From Rhizophagus irregularis (Eukaryota > Glomeromycota > Glomeromycetes > Glomerales > Glomeraceae): 64,000 nucleotides of DNA. The notes under the pieces were generated by a model. The model made no database searches. It was given only the letters and a program-made list of their open reading frames with translations, and had not been told where the DNA came from. Location: contig NC_089436.1 of assembly GCF_026210795.1 (NCBI RefSeq), forward strand, positions 1,984,001 to 2,048,000. Reading direction: 5' to 3'. Positions 3,829 through 57,653 of the stretch are shown here, one piece after another. The stretch's first letter is position 1. The number at the start of each line of letters is the position of its first letter. Made by a program: the position numbers and the translations under genes.

Positions 3829-4109
3829 TAAATAGTCTAGAATTCTATGGAGGATAGTTACTTATTTATACAATATATCGGACTGACGTCCGGAACAAAT
3901 TCTTCTCGATACAATAGATCTATAAAATTTTACCAATTTCATTGTCTGTTATATCAGTTATTATTAAAATCTAGAAATTGTTTTATAATCAAAGAATAAT
4001 AAATACGTAACAGATAATAGTTATAAGCTACAATCACGTGATGATTGTTATATTCTCTGATTGTAGATGGATAATCTACAAAGTTCGTTTTTTTTGTTTT
4101 TTTTTCAAA

Positions 4110-29383: not shown

Positions 29384-31192
29384 TTAAGCGGAATGTTTTA
29401 CTTTTATTTTTACAGGCAATTCTTCGCAATGATTCACAACCGTTGAAGAATACTTTATACCTCCGCTCATGTCCATCAATTCCACATCATATTTTCTATA
29501 TAATAAAACCATCAATGCTTTCAACTGTAATATTGCCAGTTGTTTGCCCATACAAACTCTCGCGCCTCCACCAAAATGAAGTAAGGCGTTCTTTGGAATT
29601 TGTTGTTCACTATCCATAAAACGATCAGGATCGAATTTTTCTGGTTGGTTCCAATGAGAAGGGTGCATTTGTATAGCAGGTACATTTATAAAGAATTGCG
29701 TATTTGCAAGAAATTTATAACCTGCGATTTCATCAGGTTTTGCTGATACGCGAAATAAAACCGAAACCGTTGGCATTAAACGCGAAACTAAAAAAATTTG
29801 ATATAAACATTGTTTAAAATTTTAGTATAAAGAAAAATTTCAAACAAGACGAAAAAATTTTAGTCACCTTCTTTGATGATTGCTCCGCAATAATTCAACT
29901 TATTTAAATCTTCATATGTAATTTCACGATTCATATCTTTACCAAGAATCTTTTCCATTTCTTGTAACATTTTTTGTCTAACTTCAGGATAATGTGTAAG
30001 ATAGTAAACTACGTAACAAAATGTATTTGCGGTCTAAAAAGTAAAATTTAGACTAATAAATTAACTGTAAAAAATTTTTTTTTTCAAATATATATTTACA
30101 TACCGTATCAATTCCGCCTCCCATGATTTCATAAACATTTTCACGAACTTCATCTTCACTCATAGGTCTAGCGTCAATCAAATTATCTTTATCGGTTGTT
30201 TTTACATATTTAGGATCTCGATTTGTATTAATTGTTAATAATAAAGTTAACATATCAGCACTTAATTCTTCATCTGGATCGGCTTTCTCAATTTCTTTTT
30301 TTCTTTCTCTAATTAGTTCCAACACTTTACTATTTAACCACGCCACAACATCCAACAATTCTCTTGATTTTTTTCTATTTGCTGGAAGAATTGTTCTTAA
30401 TATCTTTGGGGTATCCTTAAAGAAAATACAAGCAACGAAATGTAATCTAATATAGTTTACAAATTTTTCTGATTCTCTTAAAAAATGATCATTATTACTT
30501 TCTCTTTCATCTTTATTCAAGGTATTGAAAGTGTTAAAATAATTAAGCAAAGCATAAGATTTTGTATTTGTAGTTAGATTAAAAACGGAATCAGTCATAA
30601 ATCTCCTCATCCAATTTGCCAAATCAAGTTCAATCTCTTGTTCTTTTGCGTCATTTAGATAACCAAGTTTTTCCCAATGCTTTTCCATTTCAAAAAATAA
30701 TTCTTCTGTATTTTTTACAGCTGTCTTTAAAAACTTAGGTGCCATTAACACTTGCACCACAATTCTTCTATTATATGCCCAACTATTTACATTTCTATTA
30801 AATACTATTCCTTTACTTGTCATATCCATTTTATCCAATCCTTCATTTTCGGTTGTACGATAAGGAAAATTATTATTTGTATATGGAGAAAGTAGTTTAT
30901 CTGTAAGACTTGCATTCGAAATCCAGATTTGTCTATTATTTAAAGTGAATAAACCTCCTGAATAAACCTCAAAAATATCACCATACTTTTTTTGGAGTTC
31001 TCTTGCCCATTGCGATGAATTCGGATGATAAGTTTCAAAATTTCCTATTAATGGAAAGGGGATCGGACCTGGGATTGGATGTTGTCTTGTAAAGTAACGA
31101 AAATAAAATTGTGATATGTAAGTTAAAACAAAGATAAAGATTAAATAAAGAAAATTTGGTGGATCAAAAATGAATTCTTTAATTAATGTCAT
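29384..31192 (-). CDS. Cytochrome P450 monooxygenase (copy 1)
   Basis: Exons 31192-30104, 30033-29868 and 29787-29384 give 552 residues. An N-terminal membrane anchor (FLYLIFIFVLTYISQFYF) is followed by the Pro hinge HPIPGPIPFPLIGN. The I-helix reads GGGIDT/TANTF across intron 1. The ExxR pair is Glu418-Arg421 (EVSR), then KFDPDRF. The haem loop is FGGGARVCMG with Cys497 as thiolate ligand. ER-bound oxygenase; substrate not predictable. Start taken at the first ATG (MTLIKEF). Paralogue of the plus-strand P450 at 33115: same first two intron positions, and shared blocks such as SHW..PEKFDP and LLYRKYDVEL. Confidence 0.93.
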
Positions 31193-31677
31193 GACTGGGA
31201 AAATCAATTTTTAATTTTTTGTTTTTTTAGGAGTTGGCTTTTATAATAAATTTTTAACCTTTCTTAATTTAGTTTGGTAAAATTGAACTCGTGATTCAAA
31301 CATTTGAAAAATTAACTTAATCAAGCTAAATCTCATTTTTTATTTGAATTCGCTCGATATAATAATCAAAATGAAATTTATAATTGACTTTCTTTGTAAA
31401 GAAAGTCCATCGGCCCTGATTGTTATCCCGAATCCCTGTTCAACTCTTGATGATCTGAAGTTCTTAATATAATTTGTAACCAAATTTATGGATTTGCAAT
31501 TTTTTTATAATAAAATATTTATAAAGGCTAACTTTTTTTGTTGTTGATCTTTGGTTCAGCTCGGCACTCGGCAATTATGAACAATTTTTGTTTTGCCGTT
31601 GCATGTTTTACCCATCATTTACTTTAATATAAATATATAATGCCCCAAAACACTTTTTTTCTTCTGTAGTAAATATA
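31193..31677. promoter_or_regulatory. Divergent upstream region, P450 copy 1 / GDPD
   Basis: 485 bp between two divergent starts. A weak hairpin aactttctttgtaaagaaagt is at about 31386-31406. No other element is seen. Confidence 0.4.
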
Positions 31678-32832: not shown

Positions 32833-33114
32833 TTATTTAATTTATGCGGTCAGTAACTTCAGTAACTTATTTTAAAAGATTATCAATTATTTATTTTATC
32901 GAGTAATTTTAACAAATATCAACCTAAAATGCAATAAACTCGTTCAAGTTACGATATGACATATAATGATGTAGTAGTATGCTAAAAAGTAAATTGATCG
33001 TATACTTAAAAAGTCGCGAGCTTATGCCAATTTTGGTCATGCACGTTGTAGATTGATAAACTCATTTCAATCAAAGTTTTGTTATTTTACATTCTTTTAA
33101 CGAACATTTTTAAG

Positions 33115-34988
33115 ATGTCATTTATTGATATAATAAAATTTTTGTTTTGGAACATAATAGGATATGCATTAGCTATCTTCACGTTTTATTTAGCATTCTA
33201 TTATTTTAAATATTTTTCTAGATACAGGCCGTTGCCAGGACCTTTTCCTCTCCCATTTGTGGGCAATCGTTTACAGTATAGAGGACATCCAGCAACATGG
33301 GCAAAGCGTCTTCATGAGGAATATGGAGATATTTGTGAAATATACATGGGTGGCGAACGACATATATGGATATCCAGAGCTGATTTAGTAGAAAAGATAT
33401 TTAGACCCTCATTAAATAATAATTATTTAATAAGAATAACACACAGAGAAGGATTAGATGAAATTGATGTTACTACGAAAGGAATTACGTTCAATAGAAG
33501 TTTAGATAGTTGGACGTTTAATAGAAAGTTCTTTAATCAGGCAATTAGTTCGTTGAGTTTTATGAAACAAAATGTTATTTGGACACAAAACTTATTCGAA
33601 GAGATGGAAGATTATTGGCGGGAATTAAAATTTCAGACAGAGAACACAAGTGGCAAAGAATTTACACTTAATATATCAGAATGGATGATAAGATTTACAA
33701 CAGATGTTATTTTCACTTTGACAACGAATAAAAGAGCTTATTCATTTGCTAATTATTTTAATCAATTGTCTAATACAAAAACAAAACAACATTCAGAAAT
33801 TGAAATGGTTGAATCAGAAAATCTTATTAAAAATATTCGTTCATGGCTTCATGCTTTGCAATTTTTTATGGATACACCTTCATTATGGAGAAAATATATT
33901 CCTAGTTTTAAAAAAAGATCTGAATATTTAAAAAGTGAGGTTGATCGATTGAATAATACTTTTATGGAATTGGTTAAACAGAGAAGAAAAGAAATTGAAA
34001 TGACACCGGAAGATGAGCAATTGATACCTGATATGTTGTCAATGTTGTTAACTGTAAATACACCAAGAGATGTTACAGCTAAACTTGCAGATGAACACCA
34101 TACAAGACCCCTGTCTGATGAAGAAGTCCGTGGAAATATCTTAGAAGTTATTAGTGCTGGAGTTGATACTGTATGTCTAATCATTGAAAGTTGATTTTTA
34201 ATTTTCTTGGAAACTTTATAAAAAAAATTATATATATATATATTTTCTTTTCTTTAGACAGCAAATACATTTTGCTTTATTGTATATCATCTTGGCCATT
34301 ATCCTGATGTCAAGGAAAAAATGCTTCAAGAATTCAATTCTGTCTTCAGAGATGATTTAAGTCGTCCAATCGAACATGAAGATTTGAATAAATTAGTTTA
34401 TTGTGACGCTATCATTAAAGAAGGTATTCTCACAATTATTAGTAATATATATATTTTTTTAATCTCAATTATTTTTTAATAATCTCACATTTTTTTTAAA
34501 AGTTTCTCGGCTTATGTCAATTGTGCCAGTGATATTTAGGATGTCAATAAAGGCAGATGAGATAGTAAAATATAGTTTTCCAGCAGGAACGCAAATTAAT
34601 GTTAACACGCATGTAATTCATACACACCCGTCACATTGGAAGGATCCTGAAAAATTCGATCCTTCACGATTTCTGAATCAAGGCGTTCCAGGTGGTAACA
34701 AAATAGCAAAGAACTCTCTGCTGATTTTTGGCGGAGGACTAAGGATGTGTCCGGTAATTCTTTGATTTTTTTTTCTTTTAATCTACAAGAATAAAAAAAT
34801 GATTCTTTTTTATTTTATAGGGTAAGAATTTAGCTATGACCGAATTGAAAGCTTTGATGGTTTTGTTGTATAGGAAATATGATGTGGAACTGGTAAATAT
34901 TAATGAACCTGTTAAATATCATTATTCCATTGTTAAATCTTGTGATGATTTAATGATTAGAATAAAAGACAGGAAAGAAAAGCAATAA
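33115..34988 (+). CDS. Cytochrome P450 monooxygenase (copy 2)
   Basis: Exons 33115-34170, 34258-34423, 34503-34753 and 34821-34988 give 546 residues. An anchor helix (IIGYALAIFTFYLAFYYF) precedes the hinge RPLPGPFPLPFVGN. The I-helix is SAGVDT/TANTF, and the ExxR pair is Glu407 to Arg410 (EVSR). The haem loop is FGGGLRMCPG with Cys490. The third intron falls inside the haem loop (after CP) and is absent from copy 1, so an intron was gained or lost after duplication. Copies 1 and 2 lie in opposite directions with the GDPD gene between them. Confidence 0.93.
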
Positions 34989-40768: not shown

Positions 40769-41080
40769 ATGACTGGAATTTTGGGTTTTCAAACAGGATA
40801 TTTGGCAAGTAAAATAAAATAATTTTTTCAATTTTTTTATATATTAACAAACATTACTAACTGTTTGTTTATTAACTTTTTTTAGGCATTTTTGAGTCTT
40901 TCTGAACATGGAATACCAGCAAGTAAGAAAAAAAAAAAATTTTTTTTCTTTTTGTTTGTTTATATTAACGAACATTACTAACTGTTCATTTATTTTCTTT
41001 TTTAGACATTTTTAAGTCTTTCTGGATGTGGAATACTAGCAAGTAAGAAAAAAAAAAATTTTTTTTCTTTTTGTTTATTT
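40769..41080 (+). repeat. Intron/mini-exon cassette array, three units
   Basis: Units of about 115-120 bp. Each has ttttttag, then a 37-40-nt block, then gtaag or gtaaaa, a poly-A/poly-T stretch, and a spacer acgaacattactaactgtt leading to the next ttttttag. Blocks two and three are both 37 nt (gcatttttgagtctttctga and acatttttaagtctttctgg at their starts). The spacer supplies a TACTAAC branch-site match, so every unit looks like a spliceable mini-exon. In one phase they read AFLSLSEHGIPA and TFLSLSGCGILA. Confidence 0.7.
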
Positions 41081-41456
41081 ATATCAATATTAACGAACAT
41101 TACCGTTACTACATATGGGCGAGTTTAGTTCATTTAAATTTAATTGATATAATTGCCTTATCTGTCCTATTACATAATACTAATGTGTTCGGCATTCATG
41201 TGATATTATGTCATGTGAATATATAGATTTTATTAAATAAAAAAATTTTCCGTCCAACTAATCGTTAAACAAAAATAACTTAACGAAAAAAACGCGTTCA
41301 ACCCATCCGACCACTACACAACCCATCCGACGAACCTTGGTATATATTTCAGCTAAAACCAGCTGATTTTTCTTTAAATTTATGAATTTATTTTATTAGT
41401 TTTCTCTATTTTTTTTTTTAGCTACTGTTTGCTTACAGATTTCTCTTTTTTAAGTC

Positions 41457-42071
41457 ATGTCTACTCAAGATTCAACTAAGTTATATTGCTCTATTTGCAA
41501 AAGGCGTGCAAAAGGATTTAAAAATCGCTCAGGACTTCAACGACATGAAACACTAAAACATGCGTCCTACAATACACTTCCGTCACACGTTCGGTCAGTT
41601 CCAAACTCCGAACTTTCACATTTAAAAAAAGCTATAATCAAAGAGTTGCAAAAGCGTCTTAAAAATCATCACACCGCTGTTGGGAAACAAGTATTTTCAA
41701 TACATTGCAGTGAAGATGCTTTTGTTAGTATTTTTAAAAATCATATAACACGTTATTCTCCATGTGGGTCTTCTTATTTTTGTAGTTTTAAGGGGGAAAA
41801 AGCCTTTGAAGAAGTTGGAAAAATCTTGGATGATGAAAGTTGGGGAGAACGTAATTATGGAGGAGGGCAATTAAGCTTTGTCCGTTTGCATATGCCTGAA
41901 ATTGAAAATAGTAATTATGAACAAAGTGCAAAAAAATCTAAAACAAAATCATTAGTTAATGGAGAAATGACTGTTCAATGGAAGGTGACAGGGGGTAAAG
42001 ATAAAGAGAACCATAAATTTGAAGCAGGTTCAGCTCAATTTCGTTTTTTTTTAGATCAATGTCAAATTTAA
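41457..42071 (+). CDS. Element-encoded C2H2-type protein, 204 residues (copy A)
   Basis: Begins MSTQDSTKLYCSICKRRAKG. One zinc-finger-like unit is at residues 11-35: Cys11-x2-Cys14 then His30-x4-His35, with a longer than usual 15-residue gap. The remaining 170 residues (RLKNHHTAVGKQVFSIHCSE, RNYGGGQLSFVRLHMPE, EMTVQWKVTGGKDKEN) match no domain that I know. The repeated copy B shows mostly conservative or silent changes, so it was under selection as protein. The stop is 126 bp from the stop of the transposase on the other strand. It may bind element ends or be a partner of the transposase; that is inference from position. Confidence 0.75.
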   Translation: MSTQDSTKLYCSICKRRAKGFKNRSGLQRHETLKHASYNTLPSHVRSVPNSELSHLKKAIIKELQKRLKNHHTAVGKQVFSIHCSEDAFVSIFKNHITRYSPCGSSYFCSFKGEKAFEEVGKILDDESWGERNYGGGQLSFVRLHMPEIENSNYEQSAKKSKTKSLVNGEMTVQWKVTGGKDKENHKFEAGSAQFRFFLDQCQI

Positions 42072-42196
42072 AGAAAATCTTATAATGTAAATAGATAATT
42101 TTTATATGATATTTTTGTCAAATAATAAAAAAAATTATATAGATAATTAATACGTTTTTTCATTTTTTTTTTATTTGATAAACAAATAAAATCCTG

Positions 42197-44468
42197 TTAT
42201 TCTAGTCTGTATTTTTTGGATTTTTCAAAAAAATCAGGAACTCTATTTGATGCAAAGTACAATTGCCGATTTTCATGCTCTAACATTTCCAAAATTGCTG
42301 ATTTTCGCGAATTTCTATTCCCCCCATCTTTCAATGTGTTTTGAAAATATAGGCATACCTGCATATGATTTTTTTTTTCAACTGCAGAACACGAAAATGC
42401 TGCCAATCCAAACTTATGATGGATTTCAAGAAATTCTGCGACATGATTGCACAACACATGAATATATGGTGTTATATCCTGAATACGATACATGCCTCTA
42501 ACAAAATTACCTCTATTTGGATGTCCTGTGGAAGGAGCTGTAAATTCATCTAACCAAGATTTAGCCTTATAACGAAAAAATTCACCAGTTGTTTTTTTAT
42601 CTTGTATTAAATGATACAGTTCATTAAATTGATCCCATAAAGCACGGATTTGTATGGCTCGTGTTATTGATTGAAAAACAGCAAAAAGGTCAAATTCTTT
42701 TAGAACTTTTAATTTGTCTGGACCCATTAACGAAGTATAAGACAGATTATTTGTATTTTTTTCATGCCAAAATTGAAAGGGAATATTAAGTCTTTGCATT
42801 TCTGATAAAATTTTTCCTTTCCAAATTTCTTCATTTGCAGTCTCACGGCGAAGATCAGAAATCATTAGTTCCCACAATCTATCTGTTATTCGCAATAAAA
42901 TATGCAACTCGTCAACCACCCAATTTTGTAATGGTATCATATGAAATAAAGGTTCTTTGATATGGCCATTTATTTGTTTATAATTGACTTTAATATTATC
43001 CATTGATTTGTTAATTTTTTTTGAAGTAGTATTAATACCATTTTTATTACAATCACACCATGGACAGAAATACTGTGCATTAGCAGCATTCATTCCCAAA
43101 CAAATTGCTAAAAATTTCCAATCGGAACTGAAATACAGTTCTACAGGCCATTGGTTGCCACCTATTTGATTAAAACCTTTCTCTTTTAATATACATAAAT
43201 CAGAAATTAAAGGTGTTAATACATTCTTAAGAGACTCATATGTTTCAGCTCCCGGATATAAAACTAAAGTATAGTGATTATCTGGTTTTTGTAATCCACT
43301 TAAATCATTCAATAATGTCATTGTGACCATTACATGTTTCACTTTGCGTCCAACGTTACGCCCATCTCCTGAAATTCGAATATGTAATGTTGATTGTCTA
43401 GGAATTAAAATTCCTTTTTCAATATATAAGGGTATTATGTAGTTTAATATATCTGTTATACGACGTTGACCTCCTTTTCCAATTGATTCTAACATATTTG
43501 TAATAATTTCACTATCAGTAATATTTGGTTCTTCTCTAATTGGTTCAAATTTAGTCGGTTGCAATAAATCAACAAGAGTTAGTGGGACCTTTTTCTTCAT
43601 TTCTGCATTAATTTTTTGCCGCACATCACATACTGCCTTTTCACGTGGAAGATCTTCAATTCGTGCTAGAGATCGATAAGCTTCTCTTGATATATGGCCT
43701 TTATCCATAGATTTAACTACTGCTTCAATTTTTTTTATTTCCTCTATTTTATTCACCTTTCCAAAATTAATATCATATGCATCATCATCTATCTCAAATT
43801 TTATTTGTTTAAGTTTTACTTGATCATCTGGATGAAATGTATTGTCTCTTTCTCTTTCAACAATATCTAAAACACTTTGTGATAATCCAAGTATTCTGCG
43901 ACGTTTTTGAGAATTACCAAGATCAATAAATGGCCGAATTTTAAGATCTAGAGACATTGTTCTACGCACTCGTTCAACGCTAAGTAACTTGAGACCAAAA
44001 AGTAAAGGACCAGATATTTTTCCTTTATTTTCTTTATTTGACTGGTTCCTATTTCGATTTTTCTCCATTTCTTTCATTTCATTAAACTCCTAATAGTATA
44101 ACTAGTTAATATTCATTTCAACAATAAAAAATATTTTTAAAAAATAAGTGTACCTGATAATACTTGCAGGCAGCATCTGTAGATGTCTCCCAGGAATGTA
44201 CTTCTCTTGAAAAATTAACTCCAAAGCAAATTTTGTATAAAGGTTTTTTTTCCACATATTCAATTGAACATTCAACTGTATACATTGCTTTTCCATATTG
44301 GGTCTTGACAACATAATTATGAGGAATTGGGTGTTTAGGATTCCTGGTATAATGAAGTTGTTCTGTAAGAGGGTATGTTCCCTCTTTTATTATCTCGTAA
44401 AAATAGGTTCTTTTATTATCAAAAAGTTTTATAAATGAACTTTTAGGATAAGTGCCTTCTTCTTTCAT
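42197..44468 (-). CDS. RAG1/Transib-like DDE transposase, copy A, 735 residues
   Basis: Exons 44468-44154 and 44089-42197, phase 0. The catalytic half reads like RAG1. RISGDGR gives first Asp347. SSDWKFLAICLGMN gives second Asp428. A CxxC follows 19 residues later (Cys447, Cys450 in FCPWCDC); in mouse RAG1 the same 19 separates Asp708 and Cys727, and the same 3 separates Cys727 and Cys730. VVDELHILLRITD parallels RAG1 SIDALHCDIGN. YIHVLCNH gives His649 and His654, five apart like RAG1 His937/His942. AAFSCSAVEKKNH gives Glu676, 22 after His654 (20 in RAG1). ESLKNVLTPLISD, ahead of Asp428, parallels ETLTAILSPLIAE. The N-terminal 340 residues are family-specific and unrecognised. No RAG2-like kelch protein is present. 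Homology is read by eye, not by search. Confidence 0.78.
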
Positions 44469-45190
44469 AATTTATGTTTTATGTAATTATACTAGATCGT
44501 TAAACGTGAATGATTTACAAAAATAAAAAATGAATATATTAAAAAGTGTGAGAGAAATAAAATAAAAAAAAATTATTTGAAAAAGATTTAATAATAAAAA
44601 AAAATATTTATCTAACGCTAACTGCTAATATTTAAAAACTGCTGTGTAACACGTTATGTTTAGACTAATCCACATAAATAACAATTTCAAATTGTGCGAC
44701 TACAAATGACGCAAACGGCAAAAGTATAGTTACATAATGTTCATAATGTTATAAGTTATAACGCGTCAAAAATATATAATTACGTGGTTAGTCTTTAATT
44801 ATTTTTTTTTATTTTATTTTTTTTTATTATAACTGTTAACATAGTATTTATTACACTTATAAACGTTAACAGGTGAACCCTAAAAAAAATGTGATTAAAA
44901 AAGATGCGTCACTGACTCACTGTCAGATCAAAATTTGTTATGCTATTAAATCAAGATAAAAACCTGTATTCAATCCAAATTTAGTTATAAGCCTGATGAT
45001 CATTTCCCAAATTGAAAACTTAGCCTTATTATTCAATCTATTTATATACTGACAATTGTAATCTGAGATGCAGCAATCGATCTGAAGAATTCGTTACATA
45101 GTTAAAAAAAAAAAAAAAATTTTTATTTTGTAAGAACAGATAACCTGAAAAGTGTATATTATATATACGCCTCAGTAAGTTTCTAGGGAA
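44469..45190. other. 5' side of the transposase gene, copy A
   Basis: No gene. Contains the transposase upstream region. A block near 44940-45020 (attcaatccaaatttagtta, gcctgatgatcat) recurs in copy B near 55175-55215. Confidence 0.5.
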
Positions 45191-45199
45191 TATTTTTAT

Positions 45200-46970
45200 T
45201 AAGTATTCTTTTCTTTATAGGAAATAGACCTGGAGACCTTGTATTTGCCATTTCTCTTTAATAAATTAAAGTTTGCCGAAGTAGTTCAAGAAAAGTTTAG
45301 CAAATTCAAAAATATTGAAATTACAAAAGCTATTAAAAAAAAAATAACATGATCTTACTATCAGAAGTCATCATGAGCTCCTAGTATACTATTTATATGG
45401 TGAGTAATTTCCCAGAATTTTATGCTTAGTTGGACAAGGGGGTTTCTAGCATTTCGAATTGTATATTTTTTTAGGTGGTTCTTTCGGTTTCCTTTTCCTT
45501 AGACGCAAAATTTTGGTTTTATTTTTATTTTTTCTTAAATTATTTTTGTTTAACAAATGATTTCCAACAGTTCGTTTACTTTCCTTTATCTGGGTGGTTC
45601 TCTTTGGATATGATTCTGGTAAGGTTAATTTCTATTTTTTGTATTTTATTTTAACATACTTTACTAACAGTTCTTTTTTTCCAGTTTTTTCATTTCTTTT
45701 AGATGTTGCCGATTCCCTTTTGAAATATGGGTGGTGTCCTTTTTTTTTTGTTTCCTTCTGTCTTGTTTTCTTTTGCCTTGTTATTAACTTTTGCCTTTCT
45801 TTTTTGTAGATTTTGTCTTTTTTTCTCTTATAGTTTTTGGCAGGTTTTTTTTTCGGATTTTTCTAGGTTTGCTGTTCTCTTGAGGTTATTTTTTTTTCTT
45901 TTTTGTTTCTTTTCATTTCATTACTAATTTTCATCTTGCTTTTTCATTTTTTTAGGTTCTAGTACTTTTTCTTAGATTTCTGTGGCTCTCTTTGCGGAAA
46001 TAGAGGTTGGTATTCTTTCACTTTTTTTATTTTACTGTCATTTTCTTTACTAATTTATCCTTTCTTTGGCTCTTCTTTTTTTAGGTGCTGGCGATTTTTC
46101 TTTTTTAAGCTTGACGGTTCTCTTTGGAAATAAAGGTTAATGTTCGATTTTTTTCATTATTTTTTTAGTTTCATTTTCTTTTACTAATGTTCATTTTGTT
46201 CATTTATTTCCTTTCTTTAGGTTTCAAACGGCTTGTTCTTAGGAATTCGTAAGTTCCAGTACTTTTTTCTTTATAATTTTAACAAAATTTTAACTAACAA
46301 TTCCTTTTTTTTCCTTTTTTATGCGGTCCTTTGGATTTCTTAGACGTGTGTAATGGTGTGTGATATTTTCTTCAACTTGTTTATTTACGAACTATTAACT
46401 AACAGATTTTTTCCTTTTTTAGGTAAATTTTCAGGCTCTTGGACACACGGAAATTTGGTGAGGGAGAGTTTTGACGAATGATTACTACATTTCGCTTTTT
46501 TAAACTATTTAAAAACATTTTTTTAACTTTTTTTATATTTTGTAGGAATGGTATCACATCGGAACCCTAGAGAAGCTTTTGAAGACGTCTTCAAAGAAAA
46601 TAATATATTAAGGTATTTTTTTTATTTGTAGGCTCCACATTTCTTTTCTTTGAACTACCTTTTAATGAAACTCTCATTAACGTTTCATTCATTCTTTTTT
46701 TTTAGATGGTTCTGAAGCATGGAATTTCGGTTAGAATTTGTCAATGACAGATTCAGAGATCTTGGGATGTTGTATTGGGTCATCATAGAGGTGTGATCCA
46801 AATCATCAAGATTAACTGGATTATCTGTCAGAACCTTTGGAACTGCCTTTGGTACTTTAAAGGTAAAGATGGCAGATTTTTTTTAATTAGGGACATTAGT
46901 AAAAGTTACTAACACCTCTTTATTTTTTTTTTCTTTATAGAGAGGGAGTCCTCCAGTATTAATGGAACAG
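45200..46970 (+). repeat. Decayed intron/mini-exon cassette array inside copy A
   Basis: At least ten times, a pyrimidine tract ending ttttag or tttatag is followed by a short block and then a gtaag- or gttag-like string. Examples are at about 45470, 45700, 45955, 46085, 46218, 46422, 46547, 46705 and 46940. Blocks share phrases such as ggtggttctctttgga, tggctctctttgcggaaata and cggttctctttggaaataaa. Spacers repeat tttactaa..gttcatt. The Phe-rich open frames seen here are by-products of the T-rich spacers. Confidence 0.55.
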
Positions 46971-47497
46971 CTTTTGAAAGGCATTTAAAGGGAATTTTTT
47001 AATCTGGATAATCCTGATCATTGATTATCCAGCTAATGGATTGATCAGATTCATCCAGATCGTACCTTAAAGGGAAGGATATATTTCGCTGCTTTCTTAT
47101 TGTTTATCTTATATAGCAAGTTTACAATTAGTGTGAAATCATTGTTGAGTAAAAAAATTTAGTTTAACAAAACACCTCATAATTAACTACATGTCAATCA
47201 ACAAAAATACATTATTATCTTTTATCTAATAGTAATTTACGTCATGAATGCATTATTTACTAATTAAATTTAAAAGCGTATGTAAAGTTAAACTAGTAAT
47301 ATACGTGGTTAAAGTAATTATTACATTGCAACGATTATAGCGATAATCTTAAAGTAGCCGCTAGAAATTTATTTTTTATTAATTTAAAATCTTCATATTT
47401 TAATATAATGTTAATTTTAGCCAAAATTACGCTAATTCCGGCCAAATTTTAAATCGAACCAAACTGTATTTTTTAAAAGTCAAATATACTTATCAGA

Positions 47498-47584
47498 TTA
47501 TTGTATTACATATTCTATTTTTGCTGCATCTTTGTTACTATAAAATTCAACGTATTTTGATGATGAATCAAATTCGCCGATATG
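47498..47584 (-). other. Conserved 29-codon segment at right end of copy A
   Basis: On the minus strand it reads HIGEFDSSSKYVEFYSNKDA then AKIEYVIQ and a stop. Copy B (57653-57567) keeps the same length and reads HIGEFDSLSKYVEFYTKKDA then AKLGCEIQ and a stop. It overlaps the terminal inverted repeat, so part of the conservation may be at the DNA level. Confidence 0.45.
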
Positions 47585-47599
47585 AACTGTTCGGTTTTC

Positions 47600-48110
47600 T
47601 TTTTAGGTGGTTTTTGAGTCTCTGAATCTGAAATATTAAATAGTAAGTGAAAAATGTTTTTTTTTGTTTATTTTAACGAACATTACTAACTGTTTATTTT
47701 TCTTTCTTTTTTTTAAGAATTTTTTTAAATCTCTAGATATAGAAGCATAGTAAGTAAAAAAGCTAAAGATTTTTTACTTTAACGAACATTTCTAATTGTC
47801 GTTTCTTATTTTTTAGGTATGTGTGTAAATCTTCGCATTGTTCTAGCTTTTCATTAACCTAAAAAAATAAAAAATAAACAATTAGTAATGTTTATTAATA
47901 TAAAAAAAAATTAAAAACATTTTCTTTTACTTACTGGCATTCCACATTGCCACATCTAATATAAAAACTCAAAAACCTGTTAAAAAATGAACAATTAGTA
48001 ATGTTCGTCAAATTAAATAAAAAACTAAAAAATTTTTTTTTATTTTTATTGTTCTTTTTTATTATAACGTAATTTACTAACAATTTATTATTTTCTTTTT
48101 TTAAGGGTAA
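47600..48110. repeat. Cassettes right of copy A, first direct then inverted
   Basis: 47600-47830 holds three direct cassettes (tttttag / gtggtttttgagtctctgaa / gtaagtg and two relatives) with the acgaacattactaactgttt spacer. From about 47855 to 48030 the same motif appears on the minus strand: acaattagtaatgttt spacers, and a block ending gtggaatgcca followed by gtaag. This makes a head-to-head arrangement. Confidence 0.6.
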
Positions 48111-48259: not shown

Positions 48260-48552
48260 AGGACCCCGGATATCTAATATAAAGGTCATAATGGACTTTT
48301 GGCCAAAAACACCCCTTTTTGCTGAAACTCAAAAAATCGTTTTTTGTAAATATCTCAGCATCCAGTAATTCAATTTTAATGAACTTTTTTTATTTTGTAG
48401 CCTCATTTAGCTCTACAATTTAAAAAAAGTTCATCAAAATTGGACCACTGGATGCCGAGATATTTACAAAAAACGATTTTTTGAGCCCTGAAAAATGGGC
48501 CAATCTGCCGAAAGTGTGACTTATGACCTGTTTTGGAGATATCCAGGGTCCT
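48260..48552. mobile_element. hAT-type hairpin MITE, 293 bp
   Basis: Flanked by an 8-bp direct repeat CTTGATTA (48252-48259 and 48553-48560). The element is one long imperfect palindrome: it starts aggaccccggatatct and ends agatatccagggtcct. Inner arms near 48330-48400 and 48420-48485 pair, sharing tcgttttttgtaaatatctc. It has no coding capacity. The 8-bp duplication points to a hAT transposase in trans. Confidence 0.82.
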
Positions 48553-48671
48553 CTTGATTAATTAGCTTAGAAAGGACATGTAATAATATATGGGAAATAA
48601 TAAATAAACATATTAATAATAATAAATAAAATAATTAAAATTGGCCAATATAATAACAGATAAATATGATA

Positions 48672-49995
48672 CAGTTCCCGGCGAAAAGAATGGCGGTGGG
48701 AATATTACTTCTTTTTTGAACTGTAACATGGCCATTTTCCCGATTTGGAATTTATTAATTGTTTCCAAATTGGTCAGTGACATATACCTTAAAAATAACA
48801 AGAAAAAAAATAAATGAAAAAAGTAACTTTCTTGATGTTTTTCCTCTCAAAATGACATTAACCACCTTTGAAAAAAACAGAAATGCTGTTAATCTTCTCT
48901 GGGGGCAAAATATCCGAAATGCAAGAGAAATTTCACAAATAACAGGAGTTTCCCTACGCTCCTGTGAACGATATGTCAGTTCCTTAAAAAAAATGGTAAG
49001 ATTATTGTACATCAGTCCTCTGGTCGACCACGAAAATTAACCCCCAGAAAATGCCGCCATATTGGGAAGATCGTCAAACGCAATCATTTCACTATAGCAG
49101 GTGAAATGAAAGCCCAACTTGAAGAAAAAAATCCTGAGCTTGAGGTTAGTGAACGTACCATACGTCGTGAGCTTAAAAACCTTGGATTTGCTTCTGTTCT
49201 CCCTAGAAGGGTTCCTCTTTTGACACAAAAAGCAAAAGAGTAACCATTGATTGTCAGGCGCCAACGAACATGCGAACTTTAATTAGAAAAAAGTAGTTTT
49301 TTCCGATGAAACTACACTCCAAATGTTTTGTAACACCCTTCCTGCATGGTCACGTGATGCAAAACCAATTGCTCCGATGGTAAAACATCCATTTAAAGTT
49401 CATGTTTGGGGTGCAATCAGCATTAAGGGAAAAATCGCCATGCACATGTTCACTGAAAATTTGGATCGTCATTTATACCTTCGAATTTTGAATGAGCATT
49501 TATATGATAATGCAAATGAAGTACATAGTAGTCGATGGGTCTTTCAACAAGATAATGACCTGAAACACACTTCCCGTGATGTTCAAAATGATTTGAGAGC
49601 TCACCTTCCAGGTCGGATCCTTCCTTGGCCTTCATACAGCCCAGATCTCAACCCCATTGAGAATGTGTGGGCTGTTTTAAAGAAAAATGTTGAGAAAAAG
49701 GTCAAGAGTATGGTCGCACAAAAAAAATATTTCGAAAAATAATTTTCTTGACTTAATTAGGAAGGAATGGGACGATCTTGATAATACCGTAATTATTAAT
49801 TGCGTTAAAAGCATGCCACATCGTATTAAAGCATGTATTGATGCAAATGGAGGCCATACCAAATATTAATTTAATAATAAAATATATGTATTTTTTGTCC
49901 ATCTTTCAGAATATAAAAAAATATTTTAATGATTTATTATTACAATTTGCATATATTATTAAAAAATTGACCGCCATTCTTTTCGCCGGGGACTG
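48672..49995 (+). mobile_element. Tc1/mariner transposon, decayed, 1.32 kb
   Basis: The 26-bp terminal inverted repeats differ at one base; they start CAGTTCCCGGCG at the left and CAGTCCCCGGCG read inward from the right. TA flanks both ends (48670-48671, 49996-49997). Transposase remnants on the plus strand include a helix-turn-helix (NAREISQITGVSLRSCERYV), a second one (EVSERTIRRELKNLGF), a block starting SDETTLQMF, VHVWGAIS, QQDNDLKHTS and SPDLNPIENVWAVLKK. The catalytic Asp and Glu are about 35 residues apart, the Tc1 range. At least three frame changes plus stops (around 49000, 49243-49300 and 49740) make it non-autonomous now. Confidence 0.88.
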
Positions 49996-50601: not shown

Positions 50602-50947
50602 CATATGCGCGAATTTAGTTCATTTGAATTTAATTGACAAAGTTGCCTTTAGCGGTCCTTTACGTAATACTAATATGATCGGCATTCATGTGTTTTTATG
50701 TCATATGATTATAAAGACCAGTTAATAAAAAAAATTTTCCGTTCAACTAATCGTAAAACAAAAATAACTTAATGAAAAATATGCGTTCAACCCATCTAAC
50801 CACTATACAACCCATCCAACTAACTTCGGTATATACTTCAGCATAAACCCGGCGTAATTTTTTTATAAAACTTACTGAAATTGTTAGTTTTCTCTACTTT
50901 TTTTTTAGTTATTCGTTTACTTATAGAATTTTATTTTTTTTTAAGTA

Positions 50948-51562
50948 ATGTCTACCCGAGATTCAACTAGGTTATATTGTTCAATCTGCAAAAGGCGTGT
51001 TAAAGGGTTCAAAAATCGCTCAGGTCTACAAAGACACGAAACATTAAAATATGTATCTTACAATACACTTCCTTCACATATTCAACCAGTTTCAGAATCC
51101 GAGCTTTCACACTTGAAAAAAGCTATAATTAAAGAATTACAAAAACGTCTTAAAAACCATCATACTGCTGTTGGGAAACAAGTATTTTCGATACATTGTA
51201 GTGAAGATGCCTTCGTTGGTATTTTTAGAAACCATATAACGCGTTACTCTCTATGTGGGTCTTCTTATTTATGTATCTTTAAGGGAGAAAAGGCCTTTGA
51301 TGAAGTTGGAAAAGTCTTAGATGACAAAAATTGGGGTGAGCGCAATTATGGAGGAGGACAATTGAATTTTGTTCGTTTGTATATGCCTGAAAGTGAAAAT
51401 AACAGTTATGATCAAAATGCAAAAAAATTAAAATCAAAATTAGTTTATAATGGAGAAATGACCGTTAAATGAAAGGTGACGGGAGGTAGAGACAAAGAGA
51501 ACCATAAATTTGAAGCGGATTTAGCTCAATTTCATTTTTTTTTAGACCAATGTCAAATTTAA
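50948..51562 (+). pseudogene. Element-encoded C2H2-type protein, copy B, truncated
   Basis: Begins MSTRDSTRLYCSICKRRVKG and tracks the 204-residue copy A protein. A Trp codon of copy A is TGA here, ending the frame at residue 174; homology continues to 51562. The last zinc ligand (His35 of copy A) is Tyr. The other finger ligands are kept. Confidence 0.8.
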
Positions 51563-53377
51563 AGAAAATTTTATAAACTTATGTAATTAGGTTTTTATTA
51601 TGATAACGATGGAATGAACTATTATCAATTGAAAAAAAATTACATAGATATAGTATTAGTTCAATTGCCCATAATAAAAATTACTTGATCCCGAAAAAAT
51701 TTTTTTCTTTTTTATTGTCAAACAAATAAAATCCTATTATTGTAACCTATATTTTTTGGATTTTTTTAGAAAATTAGGAACTTTATTTGATGCAAAATAT
51801 AATTGCCGATTTTCATGCTCTAGCATTTCTAAGATTGCTGATTTTTGTGAATTTTTATTCCCCCCATCTTTCAATGTATTTTGAAAATAAAGGCACACCT
51901 GCATATGGTTCATTTTTTCTACTGGTGAACATAAAAATGCAGCCAATCCAAACTCATGATGGATTTCAAGAAACTCTGCGGCATGATTACATAAAACATG
52001 AATGTATGGTGTTATATCTTGGACACGATACATACCTCTAACAAAATTACTTCTATTTGGATGTCCTGTGAAGGAGCTGTAAATGCATCTAACCAAGATT
52101 TGGCCTTATAACGAAAAAATTCGCCTGTTGTTTTCTTGTCTTGCATTAAATGATATAGTTCATTAAATTGATCCCACAAAGCACGAATTTGTATAGCTCT
52201 CGTTATTGATTGAAAAACAGCAAAAAGATCAAATCCTTTGAGGATTTTTAATTTGTCTGGACCCATCAGCGAAGTGTATAATAAATTATTGGTATTTTTT
52301 TCTACGCCAAAATTGAAATGATATGTTAAGCCTTTGCATTTCCAATAAAATTTTGGCTTTCCAAATTTCTTCATCTGCAGTTTCACGGCGAAGATCAGAA
52401 ATCATTAGCTTCCACAATCTATCTGTTATCCGCAAAAAAATATGCAATTCATCAACTACCCAATTTTGTAGCGTATCATATAAAATAATGGTTCTTTGAT
52501 GTGGCCATTTATTTGTTTGTAATTAATTTTAATATCATCCATTGATTTGTTAATTGTTTTTGACGTAGTAATAATATCATTTTTGCTACAATCACACCAA
52601 GGACAAAAGTATTGTGCGTTAGCAGCTTTCATTCCCAAATAAATTGCCAAAAATTTCCAATCGAAACTGAAATACAATTCTACTGGCCAATGATTACCAC
52701 CTATTTGATAAAAACCTCTCTCTTTTAATACATTTAAATCAGAAATTAAAGGAGCTAGTGCATTTCTAAGAGAATCATATGTTTCAGCACCTGGATATAA
52801 AACTAATGTGTAGTGATTATCTGGTTTCTGTAATCCATTTAGATCATTTAATAATGTCATTGTTATCATGACGTGTTTTACTTTGCGTCCCACATTACGA
52901 CCATCTCCTGAAATTCGAATATGTAAAGTTGATCTTCTAGGAATTAAAATTCCTTTTTCAATATATAATGGTATAATGTAATTTAAAATATCTGTTATAC
53001 GGCGCGTCCTCCTTTGCCAATTGATTCCAACATATTCATAATAATTGTACTATCAGTAATATCTGGATTTCCTGTAATTGGTTCAAATGCAGTTGGTTGT
53101 AACAAATCAACTAGAGTCATTGGAACTTTTTTTTCATTTCTGCATTGATTTTTTGTCGGAATCACATATTACATTTTCACGTGGAAGATCTTCAATTCGT
53201 GCCAGAGATCGATAAGCTTCTCTTGAGATATGGCCCCTATCCAAAGACTTAACCACTGCTTCAATTTTTTTCATTTCCTCTATTTTACCCAACTTTCCAA
53301 AATTAATTTCATATATATCATCATAAGTTTCAAATTTTATTTGTTTAAGCTTTATTTGATCATCTGGATGAAATGTA

Positions 53378-54339
53378 CAGTCAACTCCCTCTATAGTTAC
53401 TCCCGTTATAGTCACATTCTACTATATAGTCACACCAGTTGAATGTTCAAAACACTTTATTATTAAAAATTATCCTATATAGTCACAATCTATCTATAGT
53501 CACTATCACACCTATCCTCAAAAATCTTATATTAAAAAGAACTGTTTATAATCACAGTTATATAAAGAATATATTAAATAACTTGGCATCTAATAATCGT
53601 ACAAAGATGTATCATATCTTGTTAGAATCGTCTCACTGAGACGAATCGAATGGTGGTAGTTTTATCCTTTTCCGATCACTGGCTGACGAGTTATTCAACA
53701 AAATGTTAAACATCGGCATTATAATATTTCTTGATTTACGTTTTACTGCGCCATTTAACATTTTGCTAGATTTCTCGGTACCTAGTGATTGTAAAAAGAC
53801 GATTTATAGCTCGTTGGAATCGCCTCATCGAGACGAATCGAATGGTGGTAAGCACATCTCTCTGTGATCAATATTAACGGAGTTATTACTTAAAAACCAT
53901 TTAATATTTTTTAATTTCGGAAATTGATCTAGTGATTGGATTTCGATGTATCTTATACCATTAGATTCGTCTCATCAAGACGAATCGAATGGTAGTAAGA
54001 TCGTCTTTCTAGAATCAATATTGACAGAGTTATTACACAAAAACCATTAATATTTTTTTAATTTCGGAAATTAATCTAGTGATTGGATTTCGACGTATTT
54101 TATACCATTAGAACCGTCTCATCAAGACGAATCGAATGGCGGTAAGATCATCTCTCTACGATTAATATTGGCGAAGTTACGATACAATAAAGTTTTAAGT
54201 ATAATTCTGGCTAAAATTATGTTAATTTTTGGCCAGAATTATGATATACAAATATAAGAAATTTTTTATATAGTCACATCTCTTTATAATCACCAAATAT
54301 GGACTGTCCCAAATGTGTGACTATAAAGAGAGTTGACTG
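53378..54339. mobile_element. Tc1/mariner-type MITE, 962 bp, inside copy B transposase
   Basis: The ends read CAGTCAACTCCCTCTATAGT (left) and CAGTCAACTCTCTTTATAGT (inward from the right). TA is duplicated at 53376-53377 and 54340-54341. In copy A the same site reads gaaatgTAttgtctc with a single TA and no insert, giving a direct empty site. It has no transposase. The interior is mostly the tandem palindromic units listed separately. The same family, decayed, is at 9561-11885. Confidence 0.9.
53590..54190. repeat. Four tandem palindrome-bearing units inside the MITE
   Basis: Four units of about 150-160 bp, each containing a gtctcatcaagacgaatcga-like palindromic core, an aatggtggtaag-like string, a tct(c/t)tctacgatcaatattg-like run and aatttcggaaatt. 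Cores lie near 53625, 53830, 53970 and 54115. Confidence 0.8.
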
Positions 54340-55309
54340 TATTTCCTTTTTCTTTTTCAACTATATCTAGGACACGTTGTGACAATCCAAGTATTTTGCG
54401 ACGTTTTTGAGAATTACCAAGTTCATCAAATGGACGAATTTTAAGGTCTAAAGACATTGTTTTGCGCACTCGTTCAACACTCAGTAACTTGAGGCCAAAA
54501 AGTAAAGGACCAGATATTTTTCCTTTATTCTTTCTATTTGACTGGTTTCTATTTTGATTTTTTCCAATCTCTTTCGTTTTATTAAACTTCTAATTGTATA
54601 AATTAATTAACATTATTTGTTAAATATTTTTTTTCAAATAAGTGTACCTGGTAGTACTTGCAGGCAGCATCTGTCAGAGACTCCCAGGAATGTACCTCTC
54701 TTGCAAAATTATCCCCAAAGCAAATTTTATATAAAAGCCTTTTTTCCATATATTCAATTGAACATTTAACTGTATGCATTGCTTTGCCATATTGGGTCTT
54801 GACAATATAATTATGAGGAATGGGATGTTTCAGATTTTTGGTATAATAAAGTTGTTCAACAAGAGGATATGTTCCTTCTTTTATGATCTCATAAAAAAAA
54901 GTTCTTTTATTATCAAAAAGCTTTATAAATACACTTTTGGGATAAGTGCTTTTTTCTATCATAGTTTATGACTACTCCTAGTTTTGACAAAAATATGAAT
55001 AAAAAAAAATATGTGAAAAAGGTGATTAAAAAGTGAAAAATATATAAAAAAAATATTGTTACCGAGATGTGAAATAACTGGGATTGCTATGATGAAATGA
55101 ATAAAATATAAACACCATAACAGGACTGATGTGTGACGGGTGGCCACGTGGGTGTATTAAACAAGATACGAACCAGCATTCAATCTAAATTTAGTTATAA
55201 GGCCTGATGATCATGTCCAAATTAAAATATTATTTATTAAAAAGAGTATCTAAAAAAAGTTTTTTATCTAAATACGAATTTTTTTTTTTTTTGAGGAGTA
55301 TATTTTCTG

Positions 55310-55870
55310 ATAAAAAAAAAATTTATTTTTCGGTCAAAAAAAAAAAAAAAAAATTTATTTTTTCCGGTCAAAAAAAAAAAAATTTATTTTTTTCGGTCAA
55401 AAAAAAAAAAATTTATTTTTTTCCGGTCAAAAAAAAAAAATTTATTTTTTCGGTCAAAAAAAAAAAATTTATTTTTTTTCAAGGTCAAAAAAAAAAAAAA
55501 TTTATTTTTTCCGGTCAAAAAAAAAAAAATTTATTTTTTTCCGTCAAAAAAAAAAATTTATTTTTTTTAGAACCAAAAAAAAAAAAATTTATTTTTTTCG
55601 GTCAAAAAAAAAAAATTTATTTTTTTCGGTCAAAAAAAAAAAAATTTATTTTTTTCGGTCAAAAAAAAAAAAATTTATTTTTTCGGTCAAAAAAAAAAAA
55701 ATTTATTTTTTTCCGGTGAAAAAAAAAAAAATTTATTTTTTTCGGTCAAAAAAAAAAAAATTTATTTTTTTCCGGTCAAAAAAAAAAAAACTTTATTTTT
55801 TTCCGGTCAAAAAAAAAAAAAAAATTTATTTTTTTTCGGTCAAAAAAAAAAAAAAAATTTTTTTATTTTT
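55310..55870. repeat. Minisatellite of about 18 units, 27-32 bp each
   Basis: The unit is cggtca followed by 9-16 A, then tttattttttt and cc or c. About 18 copies vary mainly in A- and T-run length. The 170-codon Lys/Phe/Ile frame across it (55207-55719) is an artefact. It is absent from copy A at the corresponding place. Confidence 0.9.
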
Positions 55871-56009
55871 TTATAGATAACCTTAACTGTTAATATATAT
55901 TTTGAGTTTGGTAAGTTCTTAGAAAAAAGGTTTCATTAAGAAATGTTCAAAGAATGGACTTGAAGCCTTGTTAATGGTGTAATGGAAAACTAATGAGAGT
56001 CTATTGGGA

Positions 56010-56990
56010 GCGTATATTCATCATTAACATGGTCATTTTTTTTGTTTATAGGAAATAGATTTGGAGATCTTAATAGGAACGTATTCTTGTCTTTAACCTG
56101 AAGTAGAATTATGATCCAGATGATTTATGGCCACATTTTAATAATTATATACGTCTTTGATTAATAAAAGAATTATTTTTTTTTAAGATCTCTTATAAGT
56201 ATACCTCAATATATATATAATTTGATGAATTTAAATATCTCATCCAAAAACAAAAAAGAAAAGAAAAATTAGTAAGTTAATCAAAAATCAGAAATATTCA
56301 TCCGTATAGATAATAAAATTCAATCTGTTTTGATTATGTTTATTTTTATACTTTAATTAATAAAATAATTCATTTATTAGGGTCATCCTATGATGTTGAA
56401 TAATGACCTGCTGGTTATGCATAATTTAAGAAATGCGGGGTATTACATTCCAAATATTGATTGAGGATATTTAAAAATGTTGATCTTAGTTAATCATCCA
56501 GATCGAAACTCTAACCTAAAGAAATGTTAAAAAATGGACTGACGAGTTTCTAGGTAAATTATAATAACGGTATATATTTGACATTTAACCTAAATTAATA
56601 TTGTTTAACATTTCTTTTTTATTTATTCTTATAGAGAACAGATTGAGATCTTGCGTAAATTGTAATAGGAACATGCACTTGTCTTTGACTAAGAAATGTT
56701 AAAAAATGGATCGAGATCTTGTAAGTTTATAATAGTTACAGTATGTATATTTAGCATTGATCTAAAGACACATTACATTGTTAGTGTTTTTTTCTTTATT
56801 TTTATAGGGAACCTTATGTACAGTAAATTGTAATAAAAAACGTGATTGTCATTAAACCTAAAGAAATATTAGAAATGGACCTGGAATCCTTAGATAAGTT
56901 GTATGTTCGTTTTTTGCTAAAGCTCTGTTAGTTAGAAGAATAAACTTATTATCTTTTTTATTTATTTTTTTAACCATATAGAAATAAATT
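56010..56990 (+). repeat. Diverged cassette units inside copy B
   Basis: Four to six units of about 130-180 bp share aaagaaatgttaaaaaatgga, gagatcttg, a taaattgtaata string and a tttttatag acceptor-like end. One acceptor at about 56050 is followed by gaaatagatttggagatctt, matching copy A at 45222 (gaaatagacctggagacctt). Confidence 0.55.
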
Positions 56991-57566
56991 TTTTTATTTC
57001 TTTAATTTAGATGTCATCAATTTATCGATGATAGCAATTATCCTCATATTAAATATATGGCCTCTAACAATTAACAAACTGTTACATATCAATGCATTAA
57101 CTTTCATAATACGAAGGGCATAAAATCTTTATTTTACTTATGTAAATTTACTATATTTTATAATACTTTAAATAAAATCTTCATCAGTTTTATAATAAAC
57201 TACCAAAGATAAAAAAACAAATCATAGATCAATAATTGCAAATTTAAAAATGGATAAACGATACTTTTTATGATAGTAAGATGGTGTAAAAAACATTTAT
57301 TTTTATTTTTTTATTATGTCTATAGATATCTTTTTATTTGGCTAACGTTTAAATATTTTTTATGGTAATTACAAACAAAAAATAAATTTCAAATATCTAA
57401 ATTTATGTAAGTTCATCTTGATTTAAGAAACCTATAATTCAGAATTGACTTCGTATCATTTTTGTATTAATATTAATTTTAAATTCTGGCCAAAATTATG
57501 CTAATTCTGGCCAAAATTTATATCACGTTAAATTGTATTTTTTAAAAGTTAAATCTACTTATCTGG

Positions 57567-57653
57567 TTATTGTATTTCACATCCTAATTTTGCTGCATCT
57601 TTTTTAGTATAAAATTCAACATATTTAGACAATGAATCAAATTCGCCGATATG
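57567..57653 (-). other. Conserved 29-codon segment at right end of copy B
   Basis: Same length and register as 47498-47584. It reads EFDSLSKYVEFYTKKDAAKL then GCEIQ and a stop on the minus strand. Most residues and the stop position are shared with copy A. Confidence 0.45.

Follow-up and report, generated by a model that had tools for sequence, protein, structure and literature searches.

A probable RAG1-like DDE transposase gene of Rhizophagus irregularis lies in an inverted-repeat-bounded two-gene element, probably a member of the RAG1/Transib/Chapaev/CACTA supergroup

RAG1 is the enzyme that shuffles antibody genes. A reading frame of the arbuscular mycorrhizal fungus Rhizophagus irregularis that carries RAG1-like catalytic residues raises the question of whether a close relative of RAG1 and Transib, or a more distant member of the same supergroup, resides at this locus. 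The window analysed, that is, the whole stretch of 64,000 nucleotides around the locus, has a GC content of 27%, and PRA-CH, PRA-PH and histidinol dehydrogenase domains occur together at 4038-6235 as a HIS4-type set, an arrangement typical of fungi. The window also contains a piece of a cytochrome P450 gene at 30056-31207 (E 1e-15), with a similar-looking ORF at 33079-34194, and a fragment of a FAR1 DNA-binding domain at 60357-60860 (E 1.1e-4, short of the cut-off), perhaps of a Mutator-like element.

The earlier note had described a complete reading frame of 735 residues at 42197-44468, and this description was borne out, the gene lying on the minus strand with two exons and one 64-bp intron. 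Exon 1 (44154-44468, minus strand) encodes 105 aa without a Pfam match, and exon 2 (42197-44089, minus strand; 630 codons plus stop, of which the ORF at 42197-44077 holds 626 codons plus stop) carries the DDE, CxxC and HxxxxH residues. The predicted GT..AG intron lies at 44090-44153 on the same strand, and splicing of the two exons in frame yields the 735-aa protein with zero internal stops. In the second copy of the gene (copy B, described below), the start codon is retained, as are the donor and the acceptor AG of the splice junction.

The residues D238, D319, C338, C341, D389, H392, H540, H545 and E567 of the 735-aa protein correspond to D600, D708, C727, C730, D792, H795, H937, H942 and E962 of mouse RAG1 (sequence from PDB 9jpu), and the counterparts in HzTransib (PDB 6pqn, residues 106-459), the sole Transib compared, are D109, D208, C224, C227, H258, H392, H397 and E419. 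The order D, D, CxxC, DxLH, HxxxxH, E, which had been likened to that of RAG1, was thus confirmed residue by residue, and the spacings claimed along with it were exact: 19 residues from the second aspartate to the first cysteine in the 735-aa protein and RAG1 (16 in HzTransib), 3 between the cysteines in both the protein and mouse RAG1, 5 between the histidines in all three proteins, and 22 from the last histidine to the glutamate in the protein and HzTransib against 20 in RAG1. The spacing between the first two aspartates was unequal (81 in the protein, 108 in RAG1 and 99 in HzTransib), and the intervals C341-D389 and H392-H540 measured 48 and 148 residues against 62 and 142 for their RAG1 equivalents. 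None of the nine residues has changed in copy B. Such a pattern could come from a true Transib or RAGL element, in which case it would belong, as a diverged fungal branch, to the clade from which RAG1 arose; the histidine spacing of 5 and the histidine-to-glutamate spacing of 22 are exactly those of HzTransib, and E567-K-K-N agrees with the E-x-x-N motif, which reads ESGN in RAG1 and EARN in HzTransib. This origin is at odds, however, with the position of the string GNFVR, which lies 17 residues before H540, compared to approximately 86 for GNFAR in RAG1 and 70 in HzTransib. Furthermore, the C2C/H(3-4)H layout is common to the whole RAG1/Transib/Chapaev/CACTA supergroup, CMCT (PMC12730594, available in part), and the layout therefore fails to single out RAG1.

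Similarity to RAG1 beyond these residues was found in short blocks. In blastp of the 735-aa protein against a one-sequence database consisting of RAG1, with composition correction off, the best two blocks were colinear at the catalytic sites, spanning D708 to CxxC (E 0.001) and HxxxxH (E 0.43), and the Smith-Waterman score was equalled by 3 of 1000 local shuffles and, in a second run, by 2 of 400. When profiles of the two copies were compared with 177,635 distinct PDB sequences, RAG1 ranked first, at the same D708-to-CxxC block, with non-significant E-values of 0.5 and 0.94 (two matches and one match up to E 10 in the respective runs), a ranking that counts both for membership in CMCT and for a Transib or RAGL element. 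In phmmer against PDB, RAG1 was absent from the result for the 735-aa protein, which returned an influenza PB2 fragment alone (E 1.4), and the 121-aa N-terminal part gave no match. A by-eye resemblance to the nonamer-binding domain failed the shuffle test, 699 of 1000 shuffles equalling its score; the domain was thus not found in the 735-aa protein, which weighs against a Transib or RAGL origin. The same holds for the comparison with HzTransib (106-459), in which similarity was undetected and 397 of 1000 shuffles equalled the score, whereas RAG1 and HzTransib matched each other at E 2e-6 with 0 of 1000. HzTransib itself matched the Pfam RAG1 model at 4e-5, short of the cut-off, compared to a best value of 0.13 in the present family. 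In hhalign runs with one-row or two-row inputs on each side, the top match to RAG1 or to RAG1 plus HzTransib was always the block from the second aspartate to CxxC (E 0.007-0.046, probability 1-5%) and the second was always the HxxxxH block, while matches to HzTransib alone fell outside the catalytic blocks.

Among the 24,736 Pfam models, the core of copy B matched two, neither of them reaching its cut-off: DUF1280 at 0.022 and RAG1 at E 0.13. A longer copy-B fragment gave DUF1280 at E 0.026 and RAG1 at 0.16, and the joined copy B gave DUF1280 alone at 0.062, with the DUF1280 match spanning 36 residues. Neither model was matched by the full-length 735-aa protein, the copy-A fragments or the other copy-B fragments. 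These copy-B values (0.02-0.16) are no stronger than some chance-looking matches in the same scans, namely Codanin-1_C (0.04), GP7 (0.066), NAS (0.11) and TscT (0.15), and the Pfam result was taken as a hint because both names, DUF1280 and RAG1, fit. DUF1280 is the Chapaev transposase, placed in one clade with RAG1 (PMC3985635, available in part). A Chapaev-type element, which would be nested in CMCT so that the odds of the two overlap, is suggested by DUF1280, which ranked first among the weak Pfam matches of copy B in three overlapping queries, though a match of 36 residues short of the cut-off and the lack of any DUF1280 match in copy A argue against it.

Pfam contains models for KDZ, Plavaka and hAT transposases. 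No CACTA, KDZ, Plavaka or hAT family was among the Pfam matches of either copy up to E 10; a better match to KDZ or hAT, which had been set as grounds for rejecting the RAG1 assignment, was thus not seen, and the weak DUF1280 and RAG1 matches of copy B stood in its place, in a scan run without a positive control for KDZ, Plavaka and hAT. The CACTA models Transposase_21 and DUF4218 were likewise without a match up to E 10 in either copy, and as a positive control, a CACTA sequence matched them at 9e-111 and 3.5e-56. In hhalign against this CACTA sequence, the 735-aa protein alone had its top match at the second-aspartate-to-CxxC block (E 0.13), the two-row profile had its top match elsewhere, and the pairwise score was at chance, being equalled by 933 of 1000 shuffles. 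Scans of NCBIfam and PHROGs gave weak matches only (best E 0.044). Homologues were found neither in viral contigs, where tblastn of the 120 stretches listed, of at least 120, gave no match, nor in prokaryote genomes, nor by tblastn in phages and plasmids. None of these database searches was significant.

AlphaFold2 models were of very low confidence because of the want of homologs, with a pLDDT of 34 for the 735-aa protein alone and 38 for the core together with four copy-B pieces. The second model places D238 after the first strand, D319 at the end of a later one and E567 within a helix, a predicted arrangement that agrees with an RNase H fold and to which we give little weight. Foldseek on this model returned 228 matches within an E limit of 10, all with E above 0.001, and no transposase occurred among the 50 of them that were listed; we regard this result as meaningless.

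The extent of the unit that carries the gene was given by its ends. Element A, with a length of 6473 bp from one terminal inverted repeat (TIR) to the other, occupies 41112-47584, and its homology to copy B stops at this pair of repeats. The left TIR, CATATGGGCGAGTTTAGTTCATTT, lies at 41112-41135 on the plus strand, and the right TIR, CATATCGGCGAATTTGATTCATCA as read on the minus strand, lies at 47561-47584. The repeats are imperfect (18 of 24 positions identical between left and right in A, 19 of 24 in B) and start with 5'-CATAT, the terminal sequences being CATATGGGCGAGTTTAG at the left of A, CATATGCGCGAATTTAG at the left of B and CATATCGGCGAATTTGA at the right of both copies. In a scan for inverted repeats from the left boundary, reaching about 4 kb and 3.5 kb at the right side, the best partner (12 of 14) fell exactly at the homology ends in both copies. 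On the opposite strand of the window, the first 16 bases of left A matched at 13 of 16 in two places, at 12 in none and at 11 in 17, and those of left B matched at 13 in two places and at 12 in two. A relaxed TIR pattern with 3 mismatches gave 10 matches against 3.85 expected; the four exact matches carry no independent weight, because the pattern was written from those four ends. The TIRs were absent among the 25 of 351 pairs listed in a general search for inverted repeats. In both copies the termini CATAT..ATATG thus take the form CA..TG. Transib elements have 5-bp target-site duplications and TIRs resembling the RSS heptamer (PMC7204232, available in part), and repeats that do not start with CAC count against a Transib or RAGL element.

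Within the left part of element A, CAACCCATCCGAC occurs twice in direct orientation at 41299-41331 on the plus strand, the two copies standing at a distance of 20 bp. In the window this sequence has 4 matches with at most 2 mismatches, compared to 0.72 expected, forming two homologous pairs in A and B, and two CAACCCATCCRAC-like repeats lie 5' of the companion gene in both copies. From their sequence, the CAACCCATCCGAC repeats are candidate protein-binding sites. In the right arm of A (44470-47584) no gene was recognised, the Pfam scan there covering one ORF at 45561-45806, and the arm includes TTTTTAGG-rich sequence similar to the units that flank the element.

Those flanking units bear on whether element A moved. 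Local array units like CGAACATTACTAACTGTT occur at 40848, 40969 and 47677, and less similar ones follow at 47783, 47877 and 47990; when at most 3 mismatches are allowed, this makes 6 matches against 0.11 expected. The immediate flanks of element A, CGAACATTACCGTTACTA on the left and AACTGTTCGG on the right, are parts of such a unit, so that a repeat unit is interrupted by element A, with four extra bases at the left edge of the interrupted unit relative to its neighbours. This interrupted unit appears to be the best evidence that element A moved as a single unit. A target-site duplication was seen at neither copy, both of which are old, and the array units beside A suggest from their sequence a duplication of one base at most. 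Formally, the ends would also fit insertion into a palindromic CATATG with duplication of ATAT, a reading that was rejected, since the array units beside A are without CATATG; CATAT is therefore read as part of the TIR. The repeated units flanking A at 40840-41100 and 47600-47860 resemble very short exons together with their splice signals (TTTTTTAG / ACATTTTTAAGTCTTTCTGGATGTGGAATACYAGCA / GTAAG). The lack of a visible target-site duplication and ends of the form CAT..ATG are also a departure from Chapaev, which invariably has CAC..GTG ends and generally duplicates 3-4 bp (PMC4079192, available in part), and with the DUF1280 evidence above, a Chapaev-type element is rather unlikely.

Element B (50602-57653), the second copy, shares approximately 84-86% identity with A over the gene part. 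The gene-bearing block of 3.4 kb recurs at 50602-54970 with 84-86% identity, the copies have the same orientation and lie 9.5 kb apart, and further homologous pieces follow rightward, the last ending at 47584 in A and 57653 in B. The middles of the right arms (approximately 45241-47377 in A and 56072-57443 in B) could not be aligned between the copies and showed no clear gene. The companion gene of B (50948-51472, plus strand) has one stop relative to A and yields 174 aa, and the transposase of B is a frameshifted pseudogene with both exons (51740-54962, minus strand) that holds a transposon-like insert. This non-autonomous insert of about 960 bp in exon 2 (53378-54339) is flanked by TA on both sides, has the ends CAGTCAACTC..GAGTTGACTG and looks like a Tc1/mariner or pogo element. 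Copy B also contains a minisatellite of TTTATTTTTTTCGGTCAAAAAAAA-type units at 55280-55900 and, in the middle of its right arm, degenerate direct repeats approximately 172 bp apart and 65% identical. Between the two copies, a Tc1/mariner-like element of about 1.3 kb with CAGTTCCCGGCGAAAAGAATGGCGG ends lies at 48672-49995 with TA on both sides and a transposase frame that appears decayed by eye, and an inverted-repeat-like stretch with ACGATTTTTTG-type arms, possibly a foldback element, was seen by eye at 48300-48560.

The gene beside the transposase in element A is a companion of 204 aa with a C2H2-like zinc finger at its N terminus (41457-42071, plus strand). It is an ORF convergent with the transposase gene, from which 125 bp separate it, and its Pfam match to zf-C2H2 (E 0.075) is short of the cut-off. 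The convergent layout of two genes resembles that of RAGL elements, though the companion had no RAG2 or kelch match in Pfam, which speaks against a RAGL identity. Compared between A and B by NG86, the companion gene had a dN of 0.085 and a dS of 0.657 (203 of 204 codons), transposase exon 1 had values of 0.094 and 0.42 (102 of 105), and the two parts of exon 2 had values of 0.089 and 0.38 (79 of 79) and 0.062 and 0.50 (542 of 547), the codons dropped being those with gaps, frameshifts or a stop in B. The dN/dS ratios of both genes thus range from 0.12 to 0.23, indicating purifying selection: selection acted on both proteins, and the decay of copy B came later. Selection on both genes supports a functional pair, in which the companion may, by analogy, be an accessory factor that binds the element ends or the subterminal repeats.

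Tandem segmental duplication was our first idea and was dropped once the TIRs had been found. That the two units are host or domesticated transposon genes copied in this way and not a mobile element would be in keeping with their common orientation at a distance of 9.5 kb, the purifying selection on their genes and the lack of a visible target-site duplication. However, in each copy the homology halts at an inverted repeat at either end, and A lies inside an interrupted array unit, albeit one with four extra bases at its left edge, and segmental duplication is thus very improbable. We propose instead, with a probability of roughly three in four, that the locus holds a cut-and-paste DNA transposon of the CMCT supergroup, probably of a lineage distinct from Transib proper, a reading supported by two copies of one TIR-bounded two-gene unit with homology ending at all four TIRs.

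The assignment to the RAG1/Transib superfamily made in the earlier note was thus sustained in part. What stood, with moderate support, is a RAG1-like DDE order in a TIR-bounded unit that has apparently moved, and what did not is closeness to Transib or RAG1L, given the want of an HzTransib match and TIRs starting with CAT and not CAC. A close relationship to RAG1 specifically is not supported, and judged on sequence, membership in the broad known CMCT group is most likely. Fungal Transibs have been reported (PMC9435367; PMC11075540, available in part), which favours a true Transib or RAGL element; on the evidence given for and against it, such an element is nevertheless quite improbable here. 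Under the wide use of 'Transib superfamily' for Transib, TransibSU, Chapaev and Chapaev3 (PMC4411706, available in part), the original Transib reading could still be right.

RAG and Transib cleave DNA through a hairpin. For the proposed CMCT transposon, we envisage the following scenario. The 735-aa DDE transposase would bind the 5'-CATATSSGCGARTTTR ends and pair both of them, and cleavage would take place at a two-metal site of D238, D319 and E567 within an RNase H fold, into which a zinc-bound insert held by C338, C341, H540 and H545 may be built. Cleavage would probably proceed via a hairpin, by analogy with RAG and Transib, and the cut ends would be rejoined elsewhere in the genome. The convergent C2H2-like protein may serve as an accessory factor, like RAG2L in position and unlike it in sequence. 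More tentatively, and at somewhat less than even odds, the family may be an unnamed lineage on the RAG1/Chapaev side of CMCT with its own 5'-CATATSSGCGARTTTR termini, an unusual or absent target-site duplication and an obligate convergent C2H2 partner in the role that RAG2L has in RAGL elements; the two-gene layout would then have arisen a second time, independently.

The idea that RAG1/Transib elements were undescribed in arbuscular mycorrhizal fungi did not hold, since Transib, along with Plavaka, has already been reported in R. irregularis (PMC11075540, available in part). In addition, 20 potential Transib-like proteins have been listed in fungi, and a RAG1L is labelled with the abbreviation used there for Rhizophlyctis rosea (PMC9435367); the main text of a study of Rhizophagus transposons does not contain the word 'Transib' (PMC8647823). 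In the open-licence literature, a scope outside which Repbase lies, no description of the CATAT ends and convergent C2H2 partner of this family was found; Repbase or the curated library of PMC11075540 (available in part) may include it already. With its two ends and two genes defined, the present locus extends the supergroup behind the antibody recombinase by a fungal lineage. Should movement depend on the C2H2 partner, this would suggest that accessory proteins were recruited by RAG1-like transposases on more than one occasion. The family may also help to label part of the unclassified repeats reported for R. irregularis (PMC11075540, available in part), if it occurs among them.

In comparison with known systems, the element shares with RAG1 and RAGL of the ProtoRAG type the order of catalytic and zinc residues, the spacings of 19, 3 and 5, and a convergent second gene. 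It differs in its TIRs, which start with CATAT and are not of the CAC type, in the alignment of just two short blocks, and in its partner, which is C2H2-like and without a RAG2 match where RAGL has RAG2L. With Transib, represented by HzTransib, it has in common the DDE order, CxxC, HxxxxH, the histidine-to-glutamate spacing of 22 and E-x-x-N, and it departs from it in the undetected sequence similarity, the spacing from the second aspartate to the first cysteine (16 in HzTransib, 19 here), the CATAT ends compared to heptamer-like CAC ends and the lack of a visible 5-bp duplication. The likeness to Chapaev consists of the weak DUF1280 profile match of copy B, and the ends and duplications differ. 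ESTA elements of fungi have a transposase that is RAG1-like by HHpred and TA target-site duplications (PMC12730594, available in part); compared by description alone, they resemble the present element in being fungal, in the RAG1-like transposase and in C2C/H(3-4)H, and are unlike it in their TA duplications. To CACTA/EnSpm, the motif order is alike by eye and the CACTA sequence aligned at an hhalign E of 0.13, whereas Transposase_21 and DUF4218 were unmatched and the pairwise score was at chance. Most lineages of CMCT have CA..TG termini, and the group has target-site duplications of 2-5 bp (PMC12730594, available in part); although no duplication of 2-5 bp was seen here, the CATAT..ATATG termini of both copies fit the CA..TG form of this group.
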